Below, one piece after another: positions 16,483 through 18,214 of a stretch of 64,000 bases of DNA. Below the pieces are notes generated by a model. That model was not told the DNA's origin and ran no database searches. It saw nothing but the letters and a program-made list of their open reading frames with translations. Origin of the DNA: Sphingomonas sp. AX6 (GTDB lineage: Bacteria > Pseudomonadota > Alphaproteobacteria > Sphingomonadales > Sphingomonadaceae); NCBI RefSeq assembly GCF_902506605.1, contig NZ_LR733979.1, positions 2,092,008-2,156,007 on the forward strand. Direction: 5' to 3'. The first letter of the stretch is position 1. Each line of letters starts with the position of its first letter. Both the position numbers and the translations under genes were made by a program.

Positions 16483-16512
16483 AAAATAAAACCGGCCGTA
16501 AAACGACCGGTT
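16483..16512 (-). terminator. intrinsic terminator of a short minus-strand transcript
   Basis: On the minus strand AACCGG and CCGGTT enclose an 11-base loop, followed by TTATTTT. It sits upstream of ugd, 86 bases after the stop of the 16-codon ORF, so it ends that small unit rather than ugd. Confidence 0.7.
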
Positions 16513-16597
16513 CACTGGCAGTAATTCGGGAAATGCGCCCGGGCATTAGACTGACGGCCCCTAAGACCGTGATGCCGTCCGCCCGGACGCTAAGGGA

Positions 16598-16648
16598 TTA
16601 CCAGGGACGAAGATCGTCGCCGTATTCCCGGAAAAGGAACGACATCAT
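16598..16648 (-). CDS. 16-residue micro-ORF, candidate small peptide
   Basis: Reads MMSFLFREYGDDLRPW then TAA. The support is contextual: GGGAG with an optimal 7-base spacing to the first of two adjacent ATG codons, a TTAA-N7-TTAA box about 30 bases further upstream (16689-16703), and an intrinsic terminator downstream (16483-16512). The whole unit is about 200 nt, stands alone between ugd and an EAL-domain gene, and could equally be a small RNA with a coding stretch. I do not recognise the peptide. There are no cysteines and no signal sequence. Confidence 0.4.
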   Translation of the reverse strand: MMSFLFREYGDDLRPW

Positions 16649-16688
16649 TATTTTTCTCCCAAGCGCGCTTTTTTGCGCAACGCCGTGT

Positions 16689-16703
16689 TTAATGGAATTT
16701 TAA
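16689..16703. promoter_or_regulatory. CtrA-type box TTAA-N7-TTAA
   Basis: Perfect match to the full CtrA recognition pattern of alphaproteobacteria (TTAA, seven bases, TTAA). It lies 40 bases upstream of the micro-ORF start and about 100 bases upstream of the EAL gene on the other strand, so it could serve either. A half site TTAACC is at about 16768. Confidence 0.55.
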
Positions 16704-16804
16704 CTACGCCACAATCGTTTCGATAGCGGTGCGCCGTCCCATGGCGAAACGCGTCATGGTGAAGCTTAACCCTTCTTTCAGCGCCTAGCGGCTAGAGACG
16801 TCCA

Positions 16805-18214
16805 ATGGTCGCGCGACGAGCAGCGGATTGCGGCGCGGAAGCGCGCGCTGAACGGGCCACGGCAGCCCCGCCTGGTTCTCTCGGCGCGCCTGCGTCCAAT
16901 ATCCGTGACAGGTCGGGCCAAGCCAGCCCGCCGAAAGCGAGACAGATAACGGGCTGCACGCTGCATGTCCCGCGGCGGGCGTGGAGCGCATCTATTTTCT
17001 GCGAAATCGCCAACTTTCAATTGTTCCGTCGACAATATGGTGTGGTGGACGCCGACGCAGTGCTCGCAATGGCTTGCGAGCAAGTGGTCGAGCGGATTGC
17101 CGGCGCACGCGTCGTAGTCGCGTCCCGATCGTCCCTCGAAATCATGTTCGAAGCGTCCGATTTCGATGCCTGCCTTGCTATCATGAAACGCGTCCGTGAC
17201 GTCATCGGTGAGATTGGCTTCGCGATGCCGACCGCGCCGACGCTGGAAATCGTGATCGGCGGCGCGGCCGTGTCGGGCATCGATCATGACGAAGTCCGGC
17301 TTGTCGAAGCAGCTGAGGCAGCGCTCGAACTTGCCAGGGCAGAACGACGCGATATCCTCAGCAATGTCAGCGTCGACGGCGGCGGTATCGATGTGTTGAT
17401 GCTGATGAGGGAGTTGCCATCGGCCATTCTTAGTGGCCAGATGACGCTTCATTATCAGCCAAAGGTCCATATCCGGCGCCAGGAAGTGGCGAGCGTGGAA
17501 GCGTTGGTGCGTTGGCAGCATCCCGAGCGCGGCCTGATTCTGCCAGGCGACTTCATCGCCATCGCCGAGCGTTCGGGTGCGATCGACGCCCTGACGCGGT
17601 GGACATTGCGCCAGGCGATCGCGGACCAGCGAATCCTCGCGAGCGACGGGCATATTATGACGGTATTCCTGAACATCTCAGGGATGCTGCTCGCGGATCG
17701 CGCCTTCATCGACGAAGCGTGCCGCCTGATCATCGGCAGCGGGGCAAAGATCGGGTTCGAGATTACCGAGACCGCGGTGATCCGCGAACCCGAAAAGGCG
17801 ATCGCGCATCTGGAAATGCTCTCGCGTCTGGGTGTGCCGATTGCGATCGACGATTACGGAGCCGGATTGTCGAGCCTGGCCTATCTGAAAAAGTTGCCTG
17901 CGGGGGAATTGAAGATCGACAAGGGATTCGTGTTGCAACTGACCAGCAGCAACCGCGATCCGCTGATCGTACGATCGACCATCGATCTGGCGCATGCGCT
18001 CGACATGGAAGTGACGGCGGAAGGAGTCGAGACGCCCGCCGCACTTGCGCTGCTCAGCGTCATGGGCTGTGACATGGTCCAGGGTTATCTCTTGGGAAAA
18101 CCCACTTCGCTTGACGTCTTTCGCAACTACCTTGCCGAGGAACGGCATCTCGGCGCGGTCGCAAATGGTCGTCCGACGTTCCACCGGCCCGAAGCCTTCT
18201 GGAAGCGCGCCTGA
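16805..18214 (+). CDS. EAL-domain cyclic-di-GMP phosphodiesterase with degenerate GGDEF-like domain
   Basis: A 469-residue cytoplasmic protein. Residues about 60-200 resemble a GGDEF fold, but the active-site motif is absent (SRSSLEIMF where GGDEF would be), so it cannot make c-di-GMP. The C-terminal EAL domain keeps the expected catalytic residues: VEALVRW, NISG, ITETAV, DDYGAG, KIDKGF, AEGVET and QGYLLGKP. It should therefore hydrolyse c-di-GMP. The first 50 residues are low complexity and the start is uncertain: the ATG at 16805 has no Shine-Dalgarno and may be close to a leaderless transcript start. Upstream lie TTAACCCTTCT and the CtrA-type box. Confidence 0.88.
   Translation: MVARRAADCGAEARAERATAAPPGSLGAPASNIRDRSGQASPPKARQITGCTLHVPRRAWSASIFCEIANFQLFRRQYGVVDADAVLAMACEQVVERIAGARVVVASRSSLEIMFEASDFDACLAIMKRVRDVIGEIGFAMPTAPTLEIVIGGAAVSGIDHDEVRLVEAAEAALELARAERRDILSNVSVDGGGIDVLMLMRELPSAILSGQMTLHYQPKVHIRRQEVASVEALVRWQHPERGLILPGDFIAIAERSGAIDALTRWTLRQAIADQRILASDGHIMTVFLNISGMLLADRAFIDEACRLIIGSGAKIGFEITETAVIREPEKAIAHLEMLSRLGVPIAIDDYGAGLSSLAYLKKLPAGELKIDKGFVLQLTSSNRDPLIVRSTIDLAHALDMEVTAEGVETPAALALLSVMGCDMVQGYLLGKPTSLDVFRNYLAEERHLGAVANGRPTFHRPEAFWKRA

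Follow-up and report, generated by a model that had tools for sequence, protein, structure and literature searches.

A CtrA-boxed micropeptide gene constantly paired with a divergent EAL phosphodiesterase gene in Sphingomonas

Upstream of ugd in the genome of Sphingomonas sp. AX6 lies a 16-codon open reading frame that, judged from its conservation, is almost certainly a real, translated peptide gene with a CtrA-type box in its promoter. The gene is constantly paired with a divergently oriented gene for an EAL phosphodiesterase, which carries a CtrA-type box of its own, and this pairing, absent from the initial annotation of the region, is the main point of the present analysis. The comparisons described below give good support to the view that the product under selection is the peptide, and that peptide and enzyme are inherited together. 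All coordinates refer to the window, the whole 64,000-nt stretch of contig NZ_LR733979.1 that was analyzed.

Results

Architecture of the micro-ORF unit

The elements of the locus are as follows, from the EAL gene to the terminator:

16805..18214, plus strand: divergent phosphodiesterase gene, with an EAL domain (Pfam, 9.5e-66) and a weak, degenerate GGDEF domain (0.0084, under the cut-off)
16766..16780, plus strand: CtrA-type box TTAA-CCCTTCT-TTCA of the divergent EAL gene, from the promoter alignment
16709..16714, minus strand: predicted -35 element TTGTGG, 17 nt ahead of the predicted -10
16703-16689, minus strand: CtrA-type box TTAA-AATTCCA-TTAA (TTAA-N7-TTAA), from sequence reading and conservation in related units
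16691-16686, minus strand: predicted -10 element TAAACA, overlapped by the second half-site of the box
16665..16678, minus strand: 5' hairpin GCGC-N6-GCGC, directly preceding the Shine-Dalgarno sequence, from per-sequence folding
16656..16660, minus strand: Shine-Dalgarno sequence GGGAG, 7 nt from the ATG
16598..16648, minus strand: micro-ORF of 16 codons plus TAA, MMSFLFREYGDDLRPW, from family alignment and selection analysis
16535..16590, minus strand: 3' hairpin GCGTCCGGGC...GCCCGGGCGC, a stable fold beginning 7 nt past the stop codon
16480..16513, minus strand: intrinsic terminator with a T-rich tail, the stem at 16513-16489 being followed by TATTTTGTCT

The TTAA-N7-TTAA box, GGGAG, 16-codon ORF and terminator described in the initial annotation are all present on the minus strand where it had placed them. 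The coding sequence of MMSFLFREYGDDLRPW starts with ATGATG, the first ATG lying at 16648-16646, and ends with TAA at 16600-16598. The 85-nt tail that had been proposed was about right in length, since the distance from stop codon to terminator stem is 84 nt, but it is not a plain tail, because the stable hairpin at 16590-16535 lies inside it. Folding of the whole unit gave z = -3.6, and the combination of box, GGGAG and ATG occurs once in the 3.0-Mb genome, at this unit. Read together, these elements would specify a monocistronic micro-mRNA of ∼190 nt encoding a 16-aa peptide. A pyrimidine stretch follows the 3' hairpin (16528-16534, minus strand; TTTCCC here and CTCCC in some relatives), and could pair with the Shine-Dalgarno sequence in the clade of the window, though not in others.

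In the window and in many relatives, ugd follows on the same strand, with the terminator in between. This arrangement would suit a leader peptide or attenuator for the next gene, but elsewhere the place downstream is taken by cysD, by a SET-like gene, or by a convergent deacetylase-type hydrolase-like or flavin monooxygenase-like gene (the SET-like, deacetylase-like and monooxygenase-like labels being assigned by reading rather than by family search), and the unit stays unchanged while its neighbor changes. A role as ugd leader was therefore rejected, and a leader function in general appears very remote; the earlier description of the unit as stand-alone agrees with this variation.

A genus-wide family of 16-20-residue peptides

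The window peptide is one of a family of 16-20-aa peptides found throughout the genus, with a consensus of about MLxFxxALxYGExIRPW or, more loosely, MLxFxxxxxYGxxIRPW. The three C-terminal residues are almost always [RK]P[WF]: among 68 distinct members, 47 end in W and 15 in F, and the proline is preceded by R in 53 and by K in 12. In a 58-row alignment, M1 and the penultimate P never vary and G hardly does, and the N-terminal half is very hydrophobic in some members and charged in others, including the window peptide, which speaks neither clearly for nor clearly against a membrane-spanning peptide of the type I toxin kind.

To the extent that the flanking sequence was long enough, a 16-20-aa peptide was found upstream of the EAL gene at every locus (∼75 loci, taken from intact EAL orthologs across the genus), and a DNA search of 100 relatives found three loci besides the window in which the peptide frame is open. 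An exact-pattern scan of 84,980 species, made independently of the EAL gene, returned 39 stretches, of which 38 were Sphingomonas or Hephaestia records and one was a chance match with in-frame stops; since the pattern matches the RPW-TAA form only, 38 is a lower bound. The EAL gene adjoins the peptide in 35 of the 38, the exceptions being two stretches at a locus end and one isolated second copy. This copy (locus L205 of Sphingomonas sp. BAUL-RG-20F-R05-02) encodes a peptide identical to that of the unit at L175 in the same organism and has its own box, and the similarity between the two copies spans only ∼105 bp. No EAL gene is present within the 8-kb locus of L205, which indicates that the peptide can exist apart from the enzyme.

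The family appeared confined to Sphingomonas and Hephaestia in the searches made. Significant matches to a peptide profile in 150 genomes of the taxonomic family were limited to the genus, and no such unit was present at the loci retrieved for the weaker matches. The strict box, Shine-Dalgarno and ATG pattern, applied to 198 genomes of the order, gave no extra member among the loci read; neither search yielded a relative beyond the two genera. One look-alike, in genome G062, was discarded, as its start opens an 88-aa frame and not a micro-ORF. DNA similarity revealed no plasmid copies of the unit, a structure search with one 20-aa member found no solved relative, two 20-aa members matched nothing in Pfam or NCBIfam, and the family is not described in the open literature searched.

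Selection acts on the reading frame

Close pairs of 17-codon members were compared in all three frames. In the proposed frame, pS was 0.36 and pN 0.16 (pN/pS 0.45), the strongest conservation being at second codon positions, and the two wrong frames of the same pairs gave pN/pS of 1.1 and 2.7. These values indicate that the micro-ORF is under purifying selection, and in the right frame only. The initial annotation had named, as the outcome that would speak against it, an ORF that varies while its flanks are conserved; the opposite was observed. Together with the box, which is perfect in 50 of 68 units, the conserved codons bear out its proposal of a CtrA-boxed micropeptide gene. The family as a whole combines a conserved frame with a Shine-Dalgarno sequence, a start and a stop, which are the features by which small-protein genes are judged.

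A natural multiplication of the ORF was found in four genomes (G037, G042, G009 and G106; loci L230, L231, L232 and L234), which contain four tandem copies ∼74 bp apart. Every copy has its own Shine-Dalgarno sequence, ATG and TAA, and the array is flanked by a single 5' hairpin and a single 3' hairpin, forming one transcript unit. The copies differ at silent sites and encode a near-identical peptide, MLAFVLALxGFVGTTI[RK]PW. A fourfold array in which each ORF keeps its own signals makes it very likely that the gene product is the peptide.

RNA structure surrounds the ORF

Comparison of relatives for conserved codons versus conserved RNA structure, as had been suggested, revealed that the codons are kept, and that the hairpins are kept as structures but not as sequences. 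Among 68 members, the 80 nt past the stop codon had a mean folding z of -4.5, with 99% of members below -2, and the 5' segment had a mean z of -1.9; the ORF itself was unstructured (z -0.2) and the outer flanks were about zero. From clade to clade, hairpin stems are exchanged for wholly different sequences; inside a single clade, both partners of some base pairs have changed. Because stems cannot be aligned across clades, RNAalifold returned zero consensus pairs for the 5' region of 48 members, so that the evidence for the 5' hairpin comes from folding the sequences one by one. Inspection of alignments of 24 and 48 members revealed no conserved unpaired stretch outside the box, the Shine-Dalgarno sequence and the codons. 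Rfam 15 gave no match at cut-off in the unit; the weak matches, to ClpQY promoter, Hrs13 and suhB, were all far under it and were rejected as known families. In one clade (L017, L018, L021-L023, L027, L029, L084), the 3' hairpin contains a conserved internal motif, CCGGCGGUGAAGC...GCUGACCGG, in which G-A lies opposite G-A, reminiscent of a kink-turn.

A short RNA with an ORF, a Shine-Dalgarno sequence, a hairpin and a terminator also describes the dual-function small RNA SgrS/SgrT. The present unit has the same parts but differs in that no conserved pairing region is seen and the peptide is the selected part. The idea that a structured regulatory RNA is primary and the ORF secondary, raised in the initial annotation as a dual-function small RNA, draws on the strong 3' hairpin in nearly all members, the terminator, the compact size and the two-sided base changes. 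We consider it improbable, since the conserved hairpins lie outside the ORF and exchange their sequences between clades, no obvious single-stranded pairing stretch is conserved, the ORF is unstructured and protein-selected, and the one lineage that multiplied anything within the transcript unit multiplied the ORF and not the hairpins. The pattern of the hairpins fits a role in stabilizing and ending a small mRNA.

The peptide gene and the EAL gene are absent together

By eye, the EAL protein contains the motifs associated with activity (EAL, the N of NIS, the E of FEITET, DD, the K of LKIDK, and EGVET). An EAL ortholog is absent from 8 of 231 genomes of the genus, and on an RpoB gene tree these eight represent at least 4-5 separate changes. 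Nine genomes without the ortholog, eight nearly complete and one incomplete, were examined for the peptide, and none had a match, compared with 21 of 21 EAL-bearing controls that included the most divergent ones. Neighboring genes are often lost in a single deletion, and the co-loss thus indicates a shared fate and is no proof of contact.

Two promoters with CtrA-type boxes

The genome contains a CtrA gene, 79% identical over the full query to a Caulobacter-type CtrA sequence, and a GcrA gene. At the peptide promoter, a perfect TTAA-N7-TTAA occurs at a fixed upstream place in the 50 of 68 units noted above (0.26 expected), with 7 nt the sole enriched spacer length. GGGAG lies 6-8 nt from the start in 59 of 68 members, and TTG is found exactly 11 nt ahead of the box in 44 of 47. 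The resulting logo is TTGnTT-N17-TAACnA, in which the second half-site of the box forms the -10, and transcription would start 6-7 nt past it, at the 5' hairpin. A GANTC (CcrM) site, within TTGATTC just ahead of the box, is present in only 11 of 47 members (including L011, L015, L017, L021-L023, L026, L027, L029 and L043), and with this frequency we do not claim CcrM/GcrA control.

On the opposite side, 59 of the 68 loci have TTAA-N7-TTNA at the EAL promoter, against 0.2 expected. A conserved TA follows ∼11 nt past this box, with the start codon soon after (16766-16805, plus strand, in the window), which places the box at the -35 position and suggests an EAL mRNA that may be leaderless or nearly so.

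Full boxes with a spacer fixed at 7 nt and a conserved position are also characteristic of CtrA regulon promoters (PMC6180460), where sites near -35 activate and those with a half-site overlapping -10 repress. By this placement rule, the EAL gene and the peptide gene may be oppositely regulated, although the repression geometry is insecure, as the start sites are predicted. The Caulobacter flgB/fliO region likewise has divergent promoters with CtrA-type sites, possibly of opposite sign as reported there (PMC6180460); the Sphingomonas locus differs in having a box for each promoter, and in that one of the transcripts encodes just a 16-20-aa peptide.

The fixed divergent layout and the closeness of the two boxes could also be explained if the unit acted only in cis, its promoter and transcript tuning the EAL promoter and its peptide having no function in trans. 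Codon-level selection, the constant C-terminus and the four tandem ORFs would then be left unexplained, and we regard this possibility as quite improbable.

Discussion

The initial annotation had proposed cell-cycle regulation for the unit, which two observations do not favor: the promoter geometry is closer to repression than to activation, and S. melonis can do without CtrA (PMC7200025). There, the CcsA/CckA-ChpT-CtrA relay governs motility and biofilm formation (Francez-Charlot et al., 2015, as cited in PMC7200025), and exopolysaccharide and c-di-GMP signaling have been added to its scope (PMC8921679). In a welA mutant of Sphingomonas sp. WG, ctrA was raised and c-di-GMP was lower, and a phosphodiesterase gene, not necessarily the ortholog of the one studied here, was raised and attributed to CtrA by its motif (PMC8921679). 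Accordingly, we assign the unit to a switch between motility and biofilm formation and not to the cell cycle.

We propose that CtrA would bind the boxes at both promoters, with the EAL box at the activator position (-35) and a half-site of the peptide box serving as the -10, as in CtrA-repressed promoters, and that the motile/sessile switch would consequently have one phase in which the enzyme is made and an opposite one in which the peptide is made. We give antiphase expression a chance just short of even. The peptide might act on the phosphodiesterase or its complex through the conserved C-terminal YGExIRPW and a hydrophobic N-terminus, probably restraining the enzyme while CtrA is low, and the hairpins would end and protect the transcript. 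Action on the phosphodiesterase has, in our estimate, a chance likewise just short of even, the variable N-terminal half counting against it, and the idea that the two genes form a functional pair, the peptide gene being the partner of the enzyme, stands somewhat under an even chance. The complete model, a dedicated peptide regulator of a c-di-GMP phosphodiesterase that CtrA drives in antiphase with its target to set a motile/sessile threshold, with the dose raised in one lineage by the fourfold ORF array, is tentative and, taken whole, rather unlikely.

The main rival to enzyme modulation is a different target inside the CtrA regulon: a real, CtrA-controlled peptide acting on membrane, flagellar, pilus, division or protease machinery, and tied to the EAL gene not by contact but by regulatory DNA in common and by a joint role within that regulon. 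This has a substantial chance, though one clearly below even. Many members have a hydrophobic N-terminal half (MLAFVLALIGFVGTTIKPW), as would suit such a target, the second copy at L205 stands without an EAL gene, and Caulobacter has small division regulators, for example DidA (PMC4211646). It sits less well with the lack of the peptide in all nine EAL-less genomes, eight of them nearly complete.

Returning to modulation of the enzyme, several known systems offer likenesses. SidA is a small division regulator in Caulobacter that acts by binding a larger partner. DidA is also a very small alphaproteobacterial protein acting in this way (PMC4211646), and the peptide described here, known from its sequence, is shorter than either, tied to a c-di-GMP enzyme and placed under a CtrA-type box, the comparison being one of descriptions and not of sequences. 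In the BluR/BluF-ycgZ-ymgABC system of E. coli, an EAL protein is functionally tied to adjacent small proteins; BluF is a degenerate EAL protein that acts on the repressor of these proteins (PMC3509220), whereas in Sphingomonas the EAL motifs appear intact by eye, CtrA-type boxes lie at both promoters, and the peptide has 16-20 residues.

The peptides constitute a conserved protein family encoded by genes near the minimum size, in a heavily sequenced genus and with no match in the libraries searched. In the fourfold tandem array, nature itself gives a clear indication that selection acts on the peptide and not on the RNA. The constant pairing with one phosphodiesterase leads to a testable proposal, that a 16-20-aa peptide operates in a CtrA-run node of c-di-GMP control, and suggests that the bacterial decision between motility and biofilm formation may have a previously unrecognized peptide partner.
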